Shown: positions 907 through 41,088 of the stretch, piece after piece | How the letters are laid out: every line of letters begins with the position of its first letter | How positions within the stretch are numbered: position 1 is the stretch's first letter | Assembly: GCA_015056255.1 (NCBI GenBank) | Contig: SVGP01000010.1 | Span: 1 to 64,000 of the forward strand | Direction: 5' to 3' | DNA: 64,000 nt | From: Clostridiales bacterium | GTDB taxonomy: Bacteria > Bacillota > Clostridia > Christensenellales > Aristaeellaceae | The notes under the pieces: model-generated | What the model saw: only the letters and a program-made list of their open reading frames with translations | The model's database searches: none | Told to the model about the DNA's origin: nothing | Made by a program: the position numbers and the translations under genes

Positions 907-1473
907 TTACGGAATGAGCAGATTCTCCTTCATTCCAAACAGCACAAACACATCGCCGCTTACCAGCATGCTCCTGAAAGCAAGCTCCTGGCAGGTGTAG
1001 AAGTCCTTGCTCCGCTCCGCGTCGCACATGGTCGATTCTGCCCACAGGTTAAACTCCCGCAGCGTGATGCGCTCCCATTCGTCGCAGGCTTCGTCCGTCA
1101 TGCCCAGCGCTTCACCGTCGATCTTGGGCTTGGGCTGAATGCCCCAGCCTACTACGTTCGTGGTCAGCGTCGCGCAGCCGCTTCGTCCCAGCCCGCCACC
1201 TGAATACAGGTCGCGGCTCCTCTTTCGTAATGTCGCGCCGTGCAGATCAATGTCATCCTCCGCACTACCGCCTCCGGCCAGCCAGCCGATCATGCTGTTA
1301 AGCGTCGTGCTTGCGCCGTGGTTTCCATAGCCGGTCGCTGCCATCTGAGGGCTGTTTTTCGTCTGCGCCTCGCGTTCCTCGCGCACACGGCGAAGAAATG
1401 CTTCATTGCCCTTCTTGGGGCTAAACAAAAAAAGCGCTCTCTCGCGCAGATTGGGTTCTATTTTCCGTGCCAT
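907..1473 (-). pseudogene. Phage portal protein, lambda type, truncated (188 aa)
   Basis: The 188 residues match the N-terminal part of lambda-family portal proteins: ...DLYSGGGLGRSGCATLTT..., then ...CQELAFRSMLVSGDVFV. Family members are about 480-550 residues, so some two thirds are missing. The reading frame stops after GMKENLLIP and is followed at once by a terminator and the endolysin. The portal normally forms the dodecameric DNA gate of the head; this fragment cannot. It follows the gpW-like gene by 12 nt in the packaging operon. I infer a deletion with one edge near 900; a separate rearrangement in the assembly is the alternative. Confidence 0.8.
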
Positions 1474-8914: not shown

Positions 8915-9637
8915 TCATATAATTTCTTCATAATCCCATATGCTGATCTGTCCATCAATTTGGTTTGTCGAATTGTTGCGCTCGTCCTCTTCAATCCGCT
9001 TTGCCGCGCTCAAATAATACTGAATGTCGATTTCGAATCCGGTAGCTTCATAACCCATTCGACTACAGGCGATCAGGCTTGAGCCGCTGCCAACATGCGT
9101 ATCAATAATCCGCCATCCGGGCTCTGCAAATTTGGTGAGTAGCCATTCATAAAGAGCGACAGGTTTCTGTGTTGGATGAATTCGGATTTCATTCAGCTTT
9201 TTGTTTCCTTGGGCAACGCGGCCTTCTTCTATACTTTTACCTTGCATCATTCCGTTCCACATAAACGGAAACAATCGAACGGTTCTGCTAAGATCCGTTG
9301 CTGCGATCTCCGCATCGCTGAAGGTCGATTTGCCGTTGCATTTATCCCATATGATTCGGCCGCATTGAAACGGATAGTCGAAGTAGTTACATCCCCATAT
9401 GATATAGTGCTTGCTCACGCGTATCAGCTCGTTAAAGTAAGTTTTATCAGGTACAGTCCATTGCCGCGTAGAGGGATTGTAAGATCTGAATACACCCGTT
9501 TTGCTGACTTTTTGGCCATAGTAATTTCTTCGCTCCGGGCCGCTATAGTAGGGTGGATCAACGATAGCCAAATCAAAATATTTGTCGGGATAGCGCGCCA
9601 TGCCGATCATGCAATCTTCGTTACGAAAGTCGATCAT
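8915..9637 (-). CDS. Phage site-specific DNA methyltransferase (N6-adenine/N4-cytosine class)
   Basis: ATG at 9637 is preferred, with GGAG upstream; an ATG at 9664 is also open. About 240 residues. Motif IV DPPY (IVDPPYYSG) comes early, and the AdoMet motif I equivalent (DTHVGSGSSLIACSRMGYEATGFEID) is at the C-terminal end, so the order is beta class. HPTQKPVALYEWLL is the usual motif between them. There is no cognate nuclease nearby, so it probably protects phage DNA against host restriction or acts as a regulator. Confidence 0.9.
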   Translation of the reverse strand: MIDFRNEDCMIGMARYPDKYFDLAIVDPPYYSGPERRNYYGQKVSKTGVFRSYNPSTRQWTVPDKTYFNELIRVSKHYIIWGCNYFDYPFQCGRIIWDKCNGKSTFSDAEIAATDLSRTVRLFPFMWNGMMQGKSIEEGRVAQGNKKLNEIRIHPTQKPVALYEWLLTKFAEPGWRIIDTHVGSGSSLIACSRMGYEATGFEIDIQYYLSAAKRIEEDERNNSTNQIDGQISIWDYEEII

Positions 9638-11349: not shown

Positions 11350-11574
11350 CTAAGTGTTCGTTTTTATGTTCCATGCATCACGGATCCGCTTATAGTCCTT
11401 CGGCGGCTCGGGCGGCGTCATCCAGTGTGTGTAAAAACTATTCTTTCCGATGAGTGTGTGCTGCACGATCATAACACCTTGCCACACATGCCATGCTAGA
11501 ACGCATCCATGAAAATCAGCGTCTTCCATAGTTGGCTTACGCGTCTCCACTTCAATCCAGCTGCTATTGGGCAT
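11350..11574 (-). CDS. DUF551-like small phage protein
   Basis: 74 residues. The pattern SWIEVETRKPTMEDADFHG, VLAWHVWQGVMI and FYTHWMTPPEPP matches DUF551, short proteins frequent in phage early regions, with no known function. It overlaps the preceding small gene by 11 nt. Confidence 0.75.
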   Translation of the reverse strand: MPNSSWIEVETRKPTMEDADFHGCVLAWHVWQGVMIVQHTLIGKNSFYTHWMTPPEPPKDYKRIRDAWNIKTNT

Positions 11575-11806
11575 CTTCGCCTGTCAGCACATAATGGATC
11601 ATGCGCCGTGTTTCCTCTCCGCAATGCTTCATTGCGTCTTCTGCAGTCGGTAATCGGCCGTGTTCCCTTCGAAACCGCATCATGTAGTAAAGACTGAATC
11701 GGTTATGCGGAAACTCTGCCGGATGCTTAGAAGCGCAGATTTTGCATGTGCCGTCTATAGGTGGCGTGATCCTAACGGTTGAAAAAGGAAAGTCTTTATC
11801 AGGCAT
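11564..11806 (-). CDS. Hypothetical small phage protein
   Basis: 80 residues from an ATG with GGAGGTG upstream. Contains a CKIC pair and a later HCGEE, possibly a small metal site, and an Arg-rich helix (YMMRFRREHGRLPTAEDAM). No family recognised. First protein gene downstream of the structured RNA block. Confidence 0.55.
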   Translation of the reverse strand: MPDKDFPFSTVRITPPIDGTCKICASKHPAEFPHNRFSLYYMMRFRREHGRLPTAEDAMKHCGEETRRMIHYVLTGEDAQ

Positions 11807-11814
11807 TTTTACAC

Positions 11815-12126
11815 CTCCGTTTTCCGAAAACGAAGCTGATAGAATGCCTGTTTATGTTTATCGGCAGGATGAAAATAAACACCCTCTTTCAATAAAAGCG
11901 TCCCCGTCTGTCCGGGGTGTCATGCGTTGCTCGCTTCCGCATTGCCACCGTGCGGCCTTAACCGATGCCCACGGGATCGTAAGGCTTACTGTCCCGCCTT
12001 GCATCGGCAAGTCGTTTGTCGAAGCCTCAAAGACCGTTGTTTACAGACGGTTTTTCGTTGCCTGTCATTCCAGGCATAACGGCCCCCACGCAAACAGGGA
12101 ACATGCTTAAACCGTAAAAGCCGTTG
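11815..12126 (-). ncRNA. Hairpin-rich non-coding stretch, possible large structured phage RNA
   Basis: No credible minus-strand reading frame. Reading the minus strand one finds successive hairpins: GCCTG/CAGGC near 12065, AACCGTC... with ACGGT near 12030, GATGC/GCATC enclosing a GGGAC/ATCCC stem near 11950-12010, and CCCCG/CGGGG at 11902-11917. Together with the tRNA-like elements beyond 12127 it forms a ~950-nt protein-free block. Large ornate phage RNAs such as GOLLD and ROOL, which sit in phage genomes near tRNAs, are the first families to compare. The exact ends are not known. Confidence 0.4.
11902..11917 (-). repeat. Short conserved hairpin, copy C
   Basis: CCCCG TCTGTC CGGGG, related to copies A and B further right. 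Relative to them the outer pair is changed from G-C to C-G, a compensatory change, and the flanking TG.CA is kept. Confidence 0.6.
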
Positions 12127-12185
12127 CGCAGGCGGCTGGATTCGAACCAGCGTCCCAAGGCTCTTGCCATCTGAGCTACACCTGC
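12127..12185 (-). ncRNA. tRNA-like element 1: canonical acceptor, D and T arms, no anticodon arm
   Basis: On the minus strand GCAGGTG pairs with CGCCTGC (7 bp with one G-U). Then TA, a canonical D arm (GCTC, loop AGATGGCAA, GAGC) and a T arm (GCTGG TTCGAAT CCAGC). Only 8 nt, CTTGGGAC, lie between the D and T arms where ~23 nt with the anticodon arm are expected. Total 59 nt; no CCA is encoded. It cannot decode in the usual way. Hairpin copy A lies 6 nt upstream of its 5' end. Confidence 0.7.
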
Positions 12186-12191
12186 ATAAAT

Positions 12192-12207
12192 GCCCGTATT
12201 TCCGGGC
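12192..12207 (-). repeat. Short conserved hairpin, copy A
   Basis: GCCCG TATTTC CGGGC with conserved flanks (AAT before, TGCCA after, plus-strand sense). Nearly identical to copy B at 12515-12530. On the transcribed minus strand it ends 6 nt before tRNA-like element 1, suggesting a processing or spacing signal. Confidence 0.7.
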
Positions 12208-12318
12208 TGCCAGACAGAGAGAGCGGCCTCTTGATTGGCTGTCGCAACCGCAATTGCACAGAGCCGTTTGAGGGGTATCGTTCAGGACTTCCTAACCCAT
12301 CCGACTATTCCTTTCATA

Positions 12319-12393
12319 GGCAATGATATTGAACCATCGGTCATTGGAATCGAACCTTTGTCCTTGCAGAATCGAACTGCGCTTCACATTGCC
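12319..12393 (-). ncRNA. tRNA-like element 2: weak, with T-loop-like hairpins
   Basis: A 75-nt segment closed on the minus strand by GGCAATG/CATTGCC (7 bp). It contains GCAG TTCGATT CTGC, a T-arm-like hairpin, and further TTCGATT and TTCAATA words. The internal folding is not a convincing cloverleaf, so this is the least certain element of the array. Confidence 0.35.
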
Positions 12394-12427
12394 ATAGCTC
12401 CAGCTATAGGTGTCCACGGAGAATTGG

Positions 12428-12507
12428 AGAGACAGGAGGGATTTGAACCCTCTCGCATATTCTGCGTATATACACAGACCATCTTTGCGCCATCCTTTGG
12501 CTGTCTC
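12428..12507 (-). ncRNA. tRNA-like element 3
   Basis: Minus strand: acceptor GAGACAG/CTGTCTC (7 bp), T arm GAGGG TTCAAAT CCCTC, and a central hairpin TCTGTG TATATA CGCAGA with a 6-nt loop in place of the 7-nt anticodon loop. The D region (CCA AAGGA TGG) is not canonical. Length 80 nt, no encoded CCA. It may be a diverged or non-decoding tRNA. Hairpin copy B ends 7 nt upstream of its 5' end. Confidence 0.6.
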
Positions 12508-12514
12508 ATGGAAT

Positions 12515-12530
12515 GCCCGTCTTTCCGGGC
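12515..12530 (-). repeat. Short conserved hairpin, copy B
   Basis: GCCCG TCTTTC CGGGC, with the same AAT and TGCCA flanks as copy A (one base differs over about 24). On the minus strand it directly precedes tRNA-like element 3. Confidence 0.7.
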
Positions 12531-12562
12531 TGCCATCATCTTTTCTTGGAGTGTGGAAGAGG

Positions 12563-12645
12563 GGCGGTATACCGGAGTCGAACCGGTGTATCTCGGAGAA
12601 GGAGATGAAGAAATCCAAGCATGCTTCCAACTGCATCAATACCGC
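12563..12645 (-). ncRNA. tRNA-like element 4 with an 18-nt pyrimidine-rich anticodon loop
   Basis: Minus strand: acceptor GCGGTAT/ATACCGC (7 bp), TG, D arm ATGC AGTTGGAA GCAT with the conserved GG, anticodon stem CTTGG/CCGAG, and T arm ACCGG TTCGACT CCGGT. The anticodon loop, 12597-12614, is 18 nt (ATTTCTTCATCTCCTTCT on the RNA strand) instead of 7. It has a central CAU and resembles the anti-Shine-Dalgarno tail of 16S rRNA (CCUCCUUUCU). No CCA encoded. Paralogous to element 5 with compensatory changes in four stems, so the fold is probably under selection. Confidence 0.75.
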
Positions 12646-12679
12646 GCATTGCGCCTATTGATATTGAATTCTAAACATA

Positions 12680-12763
12680 TCGGTACGCCGGATTCGAACC
12701 GGCATTTCCCTAAAGAAAAGGATGAAAAAGAATCGGGCGTGCTGCCGTTTGCACCAGTACCGC
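12680..12763 (-). ncRNA. tRNA-like element 5 with a 20-nt pyrimidine-rich anticodon loop
   Basis: Minus strand: acceptor CGGTAC/GTACCG (first G opposite A), TG, D arm GTGC AAACGGCA GCAC, anticodon stem CCCGA/TAGGG with one G-A mismatch, T arm GCCGG TTCGAAT CCGGC. The loop at 12713-12732 is 20 nt and, like element 4, reads UUC-rich, CAUC, then CCUUUUCUU. Lies directly downstream of the gene at 12792-13079 and was probably transcribed with it. Not a standard tRNA. Confidence 0.75.
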
Positions 12764-12791
12764 ACGCATCAAGTTTTCTTACTCCCGCTTT

Positions 12792-13079
12792 TTATTCGCA
12801 AGTGCAATCATGCTCTAAGCACCATTTAAGCGCAGGCGCATACTTAACAAGCGCAATCACATTGCGTTCGCCGCTCAAGCCACAGCGAAAGACGCAGGCC
12901 TTCCGCTGCCTGTTTTCAGTGGAAAACGAAATGCCAATCTTGCCGTCCCAGGCCGTTTTCTCGCTTTTTCGTTTCGCTGCGCTCCAAACCCGGGCAACAT
13001 TCAAAACGCTGCCCTCCTTCGCAAACGCTTCAATTTCCTTAAGCTGCTCAGGATCCGAGAAGTAAAATATCTTCGCCAT
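12792..13079 (-). CDS. Hypothetical phage early protein
   Basis: 95 residues, SD GGAAAGAC then ATG. No family recognised. It starts KIFYFSDPEQLKEIEAFAKE and ends with a Cys-containing tail (WCLEHDCTCE); basic in the middle. It lies upstream of, and probably in the same transcript as, the tRNA-like array. Confidence 0.55.
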   Translation of the reverse strand: MAKIFYFSDPEQLKEIEAFAKEGSVLNVARVWSAAKRKSEKTAWDGKIGISFSTENRQRKACVFRCGLSGERNVIALVKYAPALKWCLEHDCTCE

Positions 13080-13090
13080 GTCTTTCCTCC

Positions 13091-13303
13091 CTAAATCCTC
13101 ACGCCTGCTTTCTCGCAGCTCTCCTTATACTTGCGCATCTTTGCAGCCAGAAGCTTGCCGATATCCGTCGCAAGCTTCTTTTCTTCCTCTTCATTTACGT
13201 CTTCAGCGCGTACAAAAAGAGGAATAGCAGGCAAAAAGTCCCCGGTCGCCGGATCGCGCAGCGCAGTTACGCCAACCTGGATATATCTTTCCTGTTTCGC
13301 CAT
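13091..13303 (-). CDS. Hypothetical small phage protein
   Basis: About 70 residues from ATG 13303, with AAGGCGGTG upstream. Two strands (YIQVGVTALRDPATGDF, IPLFVRAEDV) and a charged C-terminal helix; typical of small conserved phage early proteins with no known function. Overlaps the stop of the Cro-like gene. Confidence 0.6.
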   Translation of the reverse strand: MAKQERYIQVGVTALRDPATGDFLPAIPLFVRAEDVNEEEEKKLATDIGKLLAAKMRKYKESCEKAGVRI

Positions 13304-13305
13304 AA

Positions 13306-13512
13306 TCACACCGCCTTTGTACTTTCAATGCTTCGATATAATTCGTCGATACTGCAGCCATAAAGGACGGATAACGGAGCCAGTTTCCCTACTTTAGGAG
13401 AAGCAATGCCCGTTTCCCACTTTGCTACAGTAGATCGGTCAATCGACAATTCGCTTGCGACTTTCTCTTGGGTGAGATTCGCTCTGATGCGAAGATCGGC
13501 AAGTTGACTCAT
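13306..13512 (-). CDS. Cro-like XRE regulator
   Basis: 68 residues, essentially one HTH_3 domain (LRIRANLTQEKVASELSIDR, STVAKWETG). First gene of the minus-strand early operon, divergent from the CI-like repressor. Expected to bind the GTGAA-N5-TTCAC operators in the 300-nt gap and shut off the repressor promoter in the lytic phase. Confidence 0.85.
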   Translation of the reverse strand: MSQLADLRIRANLTQEKVASELSIDRSTVAKWETGIASPKVGKLAPLSVLYGCSIDELYRSIESTKAV

Positions 13513-13712: not shown

Positions 13713-13741
13713 ATTATACTGAATACTAATCAGAATGTCAA
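13713..13741 (-). promoter_or_regulatory. Phage early lytic promoter (PR equivalent)
   Basis: Minus strand TTGACA (13736-13741), 17-nt spacer, TATAAT (13713-13718): a consensus sigma-70 promoter driving the Cro-like gene and the early operon. Flanked by operators OB and OC. Confidence 0.85.
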
Positions 13742-40740: not shown

Positions 40741-41088
40741 TGGAGGCGAGGGGGGTCGAACCCCTGTCCGAAAACCCGACGATAAGAGCATCTCCGAGCG
40801 CAGTCTGTGTTTTGGGATTCCCCTCATGGGACTTCCGCAGACAGAATTCCCATTACGGTAGCTTCATAAATGCCGGTTTGGCTCAAAGCTTTGCCAAACC
40901 CGTTCCCTGCCTTTATGACGCCGGTGGCCTACGCCGCAGGAGGCTTAGGGTCGACGTTTGCTGCATTAAGCAGCAAAAGCGTAATTTTCGTTATTCGCAG
41001 TTATTTTTCTTCCCGCTTTTAAGGCAGTTCGGGGCTGCCGCTCGCTTCTCTTAACCCCTGAATCCCCGTCGAAACCAAATACGCCCCC
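40741..41088 (-). ncRNA. ssrA: tmRNA
   Basis: Minus strand: 5' GGGGGCGTATTTGGTTTCGA start and GTTCGACCCCCCTCGCCTCC at the 3' end pair as the tRNA-like acceptor and T arm. The resume codon is GCG at 40996-40998 and the tag frame to TAA at 40966-40968 encodes ANNENYAFAA. No CCA is encoded. It rescues stalled ribosomes with SmpB, whose gene lies just upstream on the same strand. Confidence 0.96.

Follow-up and report, generated by a model that had tools for sequence, protein, structure and literature searches.

Bacterial antisense small RNAs block ribosome binding sites, and tmRNA and other tRNA-like domains possess a tRNA elbow without a working anticodon. It is debated why phages encode tRNAs. 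One proposal is that phage tRNAs mutated in the anticodon loop escape anticodon nucleases and stand in for host tRNAs that have been cleaved (van den Berg et al., eLife 2023, PMC10264068). Another report describes gut phage tRNAs linked to theta ribozymes, with a structured RNA at the tRNA 3' end (Kienbeck et al., Nat Commun 2024, PMC10879173).

We analysed a stretch of 64,000 nt (the window) from a contig of a Clostridiales bacterium, in which the minus strand of a prophage carries an array of tRNA-like elements. Two of these, E4 and E5, resemble the tRNAs of PMC10264068 in being phage tRNAs altered in the anticodon loop; however, those tRNAs are proposed to replace host tRNAs, whereas E4 and E5 would have no decoding function, and the main text of PMC10264068 contains neither 'insertion' nor 'loop size' (0 occurrences). 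The array also resembles the theta ribozyme-linked tRNAs in combining a gut phage tRNA with a structured RNA on its 3' end. The theta ribozyme, however, is an HDV-like self-cleaving RNA that starts at the first nucleotide after the tRNA 3' end, whereas the conserved RNA of our array is predicted to pair with the CCA, and no HDV-type family was present among the Rfam matches of the window, of positions 11500-13500 or of six relatives' loci. E4 and E5 share with tmRNA and other tRNA-like domains an elbow that lacks a working anticodon, but tmRNA gave no above-cut-off match in the array (only partial T-arm matches of 13 bits and 7 bits); the host's own tmRNA lies at 40741-41088. The action that we propose is that of the bacterial antisense small RNAs, except that E4 and E5 would exert it on a tRNA scaffold and on candidate targets. 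The literature searched, subscription papers and preprints aside, gave no description of such elements. E4 and E5 provide some grounds for proposing a new class of regulators built on a tRNA scaffold. This class-level significance is larger than that seen by an earlier note, made from the letters of this DNA alone. An antisense loop on a tRNA shape, if true, would be a new use of that shape.

The prophage has terminase, portal, replication, SSB, MTase, MazG-like, repressor and integrase-type recombinase genes, and 21,523 of the 21,524 bases that it shares with the virus contig IMGVR_UViG_3300018878_005608 are identical; this was the one near-identical phage among the viral contigs reached via its DUF3102 protein. 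In the portal region (window 907-1473 and L105 3151-5765, both minus strand), the portal ORF is only 188 aa long and is followed by a lysin-like ORF, assigned by eye, and a holin; the prophage may have lost its structural genes. The predicted early transcript contains an HTH gene (13306-13512, HTH_3 in Pfam), two small ORFs without a family, E5, E4, E3, the conserved RNA and E1, in this order. The features of the array are as follows.

13713..13741, minus strand: sigma-70-type promoter match (12/12, TTGACA-17-TATAAT), from which the early transcript spanning the array is predicted to start; consensus match only
12680..12763, minus strand: E5, tRNA-like RNA with a 20-nt anticodon loop (letters, fold and cloverleaf scan; 35.1 bits with the Rfam tRNA model)
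12713..12732, minus strand: E5 loop, UUCUUUUUCAUCCUUUUCUU, complementary to AUGAAAAAGAA in its 5' half and to AAGAAAAGG in its 3' half
12564..12645, minus strand: E4, tRNA-like RNA with an 18-nt anticodon loop (letters, fold and cloverleaf scan)
12597..12614, minus strand: E4 loop, AUUUCUUCAUCUCCUUCU, complementary to AUGAAGAAAU in its 5' half and to AGAAGGAG in its 3' half
12512..12534, minus strand: spacer hairpin GGCAGCCCGGAAAGACGGGCATT
12425..12507, minus strand: E3, tRNA-like, with a 7-bp acceptor, T arm, encoded UCCA and remodelled middle (letters and fold)
12192..12427, minus strand: conserved structured RNA that begins at the E3 CCA, with an insert of T-arm-like hairpins (alignment of relatives)
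12189..12211, minus strand: second copy of the spacer hairpin
12128..12185, minus strand: E1, 58-nt tRNA-like with acceptor, D and T arms only and no anticodon arm (Rfam tRNA 43.3 bits; scan 25.5)
11902..11917, minus strand: terminator-like hairpin 3' of the array; consensus match only

Our cloverleaf scan gave scores of 25.5, 23.5 and 25.5 for E4, E5 and E1, respectively, and these three matches fall inside 640 bp; in 30 dinucleotide shuffles of the 64-kb window, chance matches of at least 23.5 arose 0.067 times per shuffle and matches of at least 25 did not arise. Judged from its letters, the tRNA-like fold of E4 and E5 is beyond chance. Default ARAGORN reported nothing in the array and so missed both elements, whose loops are far from 7 nt, and E1 was the sole array match to Rfam at gathering thresholds. 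Neither E4 nor E5 was listed as a tRNA in the Rfam searches of the window, at gathering or relaxed settings; the relaxed search of 11500-13500 returned E4 only as a sub-threshold tRNA-Sec (17.6 bits, cut-off 47). The whole-genome search with the Rfam tRNA model listed E5 (35.1 bits, cut-off 29) and not E4, and the 42 Rfam tRNA matches of the host draft genome include E1 and E5.

Fold and probable ancestry of E4 and E5

The earlier note had described acceptor, D and T arms and an anticodon stem kept around loops of 18 and 20 nt, and this description is confirmed, on the minus strand. E5 reads GCGGTAC-TG-GTGC-AAACGGCA-GCAC-G-CCCGA-[20 nt]-TAGGG-AAAT-GCCGG-TTCGAAT-CCGGC-GTACCGA and E4 reads GCGGTAT-TG-ATGC-AGTTGGAA-GCAT-G-CTTGG-[18 nt]-CCGAG-ATAC-ACCGG-TTCGACT-CCGGT-ATACCGC. 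Measured against the tRNA family RF00005, both have the acceptor, D and T arms with the standard elbow nucleotides, and both lack the 7-nt anticodon loop with U33 and an anticodon. The residues U8, A14 (U8-A14), G18, G19, A21 and G26 and the T loop are tRNA-standard in the two elements, and the tertiary pair 15-48 is G15-C48 in E4 and A15-U48 in E5, in standard tRNA numbering.

Comparison of E4 with E5 over 21 stem pairs revealed five double-changed pairs (acceptor 7, D 1, anticodon 2 and 5, and T 1), one pair changed on a single side, two broken in E5 (anticodon 4 and acceptor 1, both G.A) and 13 unchanged. Five double changes were matched by 13 of 500 column shuffles, and sliding the partners by 1-3 columns left 0-1 double changes. 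The paired changes reported in the earlier note hold for these five pairs, but its anticodon pair 3 is altered on one side only (U-G to C-G), and the two breaks in E5 went unmentioned there.

If E4 and E5 were decaying phage tRNA genes, functionless pseudogenes, the absence of an encoded CCA from both (the neighbouring E3 has one), the two broken pairs in E5, the silence of default ARAGORN and the restriction of the loops to this phage would all be explained. However, the five double-changed pairs are still paired, the 15-48 pair is swapped with the elbow intact, and the same type of remodelling occurs with an encoded CCA in other phages. Because the pairs are compensated, decay is disfavoured and we regard it as quite unlikely; the compensated changes support a selected fold, as had been argued before.

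A reading as tRNA genes with short anticodon-loop introns, spliced to ordinary tRNAs, draws on ARAGORN with introns allowed, which called E4 as tRNA-Arg(cct) with 9 nt inserted at position 33 and E5 as tRNA-Lys(ctt) with 13 nt at position 38; furthermore, in one related phage (L101) a tRNA-Met frame is interrupted by an 84-nt insert, and its CUCAUAA loop is intact. The two sister copies would nevertheless differ in isotype, intron position and intron length, and the nearest tRNA is tRNA-Gly(UCC), whose anticodon is not recovered. Since ARAGORN needs different isotypes and positions for E4 and E5, short introns are disfavoured, and we hold them to be very improbable. To our knowledge, inserts of 9-13 nt are too short for self-splicing. 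Removing one insert restored no consistent tRNA across both copies.

A covariance model of E4 and E5, applied to 54 loci, gave as its best non-self matches the phage tRNA-Gly(tcc) genes of L149 and L151 (55.6 and 55.4 bits; isotype by ARAGORN), which suggests that a tRNA was probably remodelled into E4 and E5. These phage tRNA-Gly(UCC) genes share with E4 and E5 an acceptor starting GCGGNA, the D-arm start TGATG, GCATG, the T arm and the elbow; they differ in having a 7-nt loop, CUUCCAA, and an encoded CCA, whereas E4 and E5 have 18- and 20-nt loops, no usable anticodon and no CCA. Of the candidates scored with the same model in 300 family genomes (the window's own included, at most 14 candidates per genome), 105 matched, and the best 11 of those matches outside the window's genome were ordinary tRNA-Ala or tRNA-Leu by ARAGORN. 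No homologue with the E4 or E5 loops was found beyond the near-identical virus contig, either in the viral contigs or in the 300 family genomes, where the best 11 non-self matches were typed. The earlier note had held that a lack of homologues with conserved loops would speak against its reading, and this is the outcome for the loop sequence. As the model searches returned ordinary tRNAs, the scaffold looks tRNA-derived, with loops found in one phage only.

A pattern for the 5' half of E4 and E5 found six stretches in the viral contigs, all canonical tRNA-Gly by their letters (two also by ARAGORN). In a BLAST search of 50,697 phage records, the array gave a single 32-nt match, inside E1, and the 721-nt array query matched 19 of the 300 genomes, namely its own and 18 others, many of them via short T-arm or spacer matches only.

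Remodelled tRNA-like elements in related phages

In the tRNA arrays of related phages, the anticodon domain of many members has been replaced, whereas the acceptor, D and T arms are kept and a CCA is encoded. The idea of a phage RNA built on a tRNA scaffold is therefore supported by similar elements elsewhere and does not describe an isolated oddity. Our scan of 27 loci kept 73 matches, 40 with a standard 7-nt loop and 33 non-canonical. An encoded NCCA was present in 29 of the 33, compared with 0 of 28 shuffle matches, a fraction that is biased because matches were kept if they had NCCA or scored at least 23.5. At least four of the 33 were set aside by eye: two ordinary tRNAs in which position 33 is not U (L053 9029- and L073 5098+), one ordinary tRNA in a longer parse (L039 6323-) and one match that overlaps another (L047 6727+). 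The matches are partly non-independent, L035 and L104 having elements in common, and one element (L036 5564, of the type T2 below) scored 21.5 and was missed. The middle that replaces the anticodon domain ranges from 8 nt (E1) and 12 nt (L099) up to 107 nt (L101).

Four types recur. T1 was aligned in five copies (L035, L097, L103, L104 and L147); the four that the scan detected are 128-136 nt long. CCUCCUU is present in all five, in a hairpin context by reading of the letters; four copies were found without reference to this motif, L147 was found by a pattern requiring it, and L104 and L147 are close copies. The sequence CUUCUUCAU lies 5' of CCUCCUU in three copies (L103, L104 and L147), and L035 and L097 have near variants of it. 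The T1 pattern found six stretches in the viral contigs, four real (L085, L089, L091 and L147) and two chance-like by eye (L146 and L148), and its one match in 308 family genomes was the known G051 copy. T2 occurs in five phages (L036, L037, L097, L099 and L103) and carries, inside the anticodon stem, an unvarying hairpin of four pairs, ACGG-loop-CCGU. It has three double-changed pairs, each in one sequence only and two of them in the anticodon helix (L036); two of 500 shuffles reached three. T3 (L040 and L099) and T4 (L035 and L104) have two occurrences each. Two candidates were dropped: T1 as a gene on the opposite strand, where the frames opened by the antisense ATG are 34-85 aa long in G320 and G321, and a T2 pairing of the loop with the variable region (GCUCC/GGAGC), which GCGCC in L103 breaks.

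These elements bear on two further readings. The first is that the array members are kept only as RNase P and 3'-end signals that cut an early polycistronic transcript, while the anticodon domain drifts freely. Selection is indeed clearest on the acceptor, T and D arms, the array lies inside a predicted early operon, the middle varies in length from 8 nt through 12 nt to 107 nt, and E1, which this account fits above all, is entirely without an anticodon arm. The anticodon stem of E4 and E5, however, has two double-changed pairs, parts of the T1 and T2 middles are among the conserved columns, and T2 has a compensated stem and an unvarying hairpin. Free drift is disfavoured because the T1 and T2 middles are conserved and the E4/E5 anticodon stem is compensated, and we consider the processing account rather unlikely.

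The second reading is that these tRNA-shaped RNAs, with the cleavable anticodon removed, act as decoys or sponges that keep tRNA-targeting defence nucleases or tRNA-binding enzymes occupied, or withstand them. It agrees with the preserved elbow and acceptor of E4 and E5 and with the proposal, in PMC10264068, that phage tRNAs with anticodon-loop changes evade anticodon nucleases. The tRNAs of that proposal, however, are taken to stay usable and bear loop mutations only, whereas a loop such as that of E4 or E5 would not decode; moreover, a decoy leaves the conserved T1 and T2 heads and the order of the loop sequences described below unexplained. We judge it unlikely. If such elements are widespread in Clostridia phages, part of the apparent tRNA debris may be small regulators or decoys.

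A 117-nt tRNA-like of L097 (5963-6079, plus strand) has in its anticodon loop UGGCAGC, perfectly complementary to GCUGCCA located 3' in the variable region; read by eye, this is a possible internal kissing pair. The L101 element (5686-5530, minus strand), as called by ARAGORN with introns allowed, carries its insertion in the tRNA-Met frame before the intact loop and has an intron-like look. L040 3496- and L099 4592+ are tRNA-likes that resemble each other, each carrying an inserted domain about 60 nt long with a GGAGG hairpin at its start.

Loop complementarity to translation starts

Both loops present an anti-start sequence followed by an anti-Shine-Dalgarno sequence: the complement of the E4 loop is AGAAGGAG then AUGAAGAAAU, and that of the E5 loop is AAGAAAAGG then AUGAAAAAGAA. 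This order recurs in T1, a different tRNA-like, where the spacer has a natural length, and the loop motif singled out in the earlier note (CAUC, then CCUU-rich sequence) is to this extent a real and recurring arrangement. Of 21 remodelled middles, 6 contained an anti-Shine-Dalgarno 5-mer, where 2.1 were expected (18 of 2000 shuffles), and 3 contained CAU with such a 5-mer after it, where 0.32 were expected (7 of 2000 shuffles); the middles were listed by hand, one per family, with the related E4 and E5 among them, and the motif was picked after the data had been seen.

Our leading, though tentative, reading is that E4 and E5 are tRNA-shaped small RNAs from the early transcript whose loops would likely pair with a Shine-Dalgarno sequence and start codon and block translation. 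From the fold, the intact elbow, the loop order and the recurrence of the class, which are properties of the sequence, we infer expression, processing, pairing, targets and effect as follows. Early transcription would begin at the promoter match (13741). E4 and E5 would be released from this transcript by RNase P and 3' processing, as their acceptor-T-D elbow is intact, to yield a stable tRNA-shaped RNA that has lost the ability to decode. The 5' half of the loop (AUUUCUUCAU in E4) would pair with AUG and codons 2-3 and the 3' half (CUCCUUCU in E4) with the Shine-Dalgarno sequence, the mRNA spacer looping out, and this pairing would block translation of the mRNA. Candidate targets in the same phage are an SprT-like gene (GGAGGCGGTGAGCT-ATGAAGAAAT) for E4 and the holin gene (GGAAGGATACATT-ATGAAAAAGA) for E5; repression of a lysis gene early in induction would fit. 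If such elements are widespread in Clostridia phages, they would be directly testable, since each has a short defined loop and E4 and E5 have named candidate targets, the holin included.

The minus strand of the 25.8-kb phage contig contains ATGAAGAAAT three times, compared with 0.11 times in shuffles (0 of 100 reach three): at the start of the SprT-like gene (contig 2450), at the likely start of the MazG-like gene (window 8931) and in the interior of another gene. At the SprT-like start, GGAG is located 10 nt upstream of ATGAAGAAAT; the Pfam match to SprT-like is itself sub-threshold (22.7 bits, cut-off 25.6). The MTase and MazG-like ORFs overlap at window 8915-8994 (minus strand), and the MazG-like start is probably the ATG at 8931, in ATGAAGAAAT, an exact match to the anti-start half of E4 with no clear Shine-Dalgarno sequence. 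The pattern GGAG, 2-14 nt, ATGAAGAAAT, which was fixed before the SprT-like site was seen, matched the 2.88-Mb genome at E4's own complement, in a 425-aa frame and in a 16-aa frame. For E5, ATGAAAAAGA occurs once on the contig, at the holin start (contig 3585, minus strand), which is not significant (1 versus 0.14; 13 of 100 shuffles); the holin is assigned by Pfam PF16079 (5.2e-14). The E5 complement is common, as its pattern has five places in the genome, four of them inside frames of 132-503 aa. When 28 starts were ranked by duplex energy with E4, the SprT-like start came third; the three starts listed for E5 did not include that of the holin.

We also compared loop pairing at translation starts with that in gene interiors. 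The AUC was 0.86 for E4, 0.76 for E5 and 0.67-0.81 for T1, the top T1 value coming from a 7-gene contig in which T1's own opposite frame was counted; it was 0.18-0.31 for T2, T4, the long L097 element and a canonical control. Shuffled E4 and E5 loops had mean AUCs of 0.81 and 0.80, respectively, showing that the affinity of the loops for translation starts is mostly their pyrimidine composition. Shuffled loops were as good as E4 in 15 of 200 cases by AUC, 3 of 200 by mean energy and 16 of 200 by minimum energy, and as good as E5 in 186, 108 and 125 of 200 cases, respectively. Because shuffled loops bind starts about as well, E4 stands slightly above its own composition and E5 does not; the anti-Shine-Dalgarno or antisense loop that the earlier note had suggested has modest support from E4 (mean 3/200, AUC 15/200) and gains nothing from E5 (186/200). 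Antisense pairing is the most specific account of the E4, E5 and T1 loops, although as a mechanism it is not established.

No convincing complementary gene start was found for T1 in the four contigs tested, where the best match was 15 nt on one Shine-Dalgarno sequence in G321, and long complementary cis targets for T1 were not upheld in its own contigs. Anti-start pairing is not the function of the whole class, because 15 of the 21 remodelled middles are without an anti-Shine-Dalgarno 5-mer and T2 and T4 have AUCs of 0.18-0.30.

Conserved RNA and spacer hairpins

The conserved RNA, with the core GGGUUUUAGGAAGUCCUGAACGAAGCCCC, lies directly 3' of the CCA of a tRNA or tRNA-like. It is found elsewhere at L035 6280-6525, L037 5031-5276, L049 4238-4407, L058 200-445 and other loci, and some phages that have it carry ordinary tRNAs (L050, L053, L055 and L056). 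An alignment of 21 sequences gave 16 predicted pairs, six of them double-changed, and UGG is the predicted partner of the CCA in 20-21 of the 21 (columns 1-3 with 141-139). Rfam (15) returned no family for it, in the window at gathering thresholds or in 11500-13500 and six relatives' loci at relaxed ones, but only tRNA, T-arm and chance-level matches. Exact patterns found 15 and then 41 viral stretches, together with eight genome contigs; by reading, 23 of the 41 are real, some being near-duplicates, and 18 are chance-like in coding DNA. The conserved RNA may be a tRNA 3'-end element.

A still wider proposal, possible but in our view doubtful, is that the arrays form a new class of phage regulator: early-made arrays of scaffolds processed as tRNAs, with interchangeable heads (antisense loops in E4, E5 and T1; nested hairpins and kissing loops elsewhere), coupled to the non-Rfam RNA that would pair with the CCA.

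A pseudoknot within the conserved RNA was read by eye as GACAG/CUGUC in the window and ACGG/CCGU in L037; an unrestricted search for crossing stems, run with no control, was uninformative, giving some in 19 of the 21 sequences at differing places. T-arm-like hairpins (GCAG-TTCGATT-CTGC and GGG-TTCGATT-CCC) lie inside the conserved RNA in the insert of the window copy (12192-12427, minus strand) and in L037, L040, L058 and L059. The spacer hairpin GGCAGCCCGGAAAGACGGGCA is repeated between the array elements and is also present in L032, L033, L035, L038, L042, L044 and L046; in some other loci it appears, by eye, to lie upstream of a ribosome binding site.
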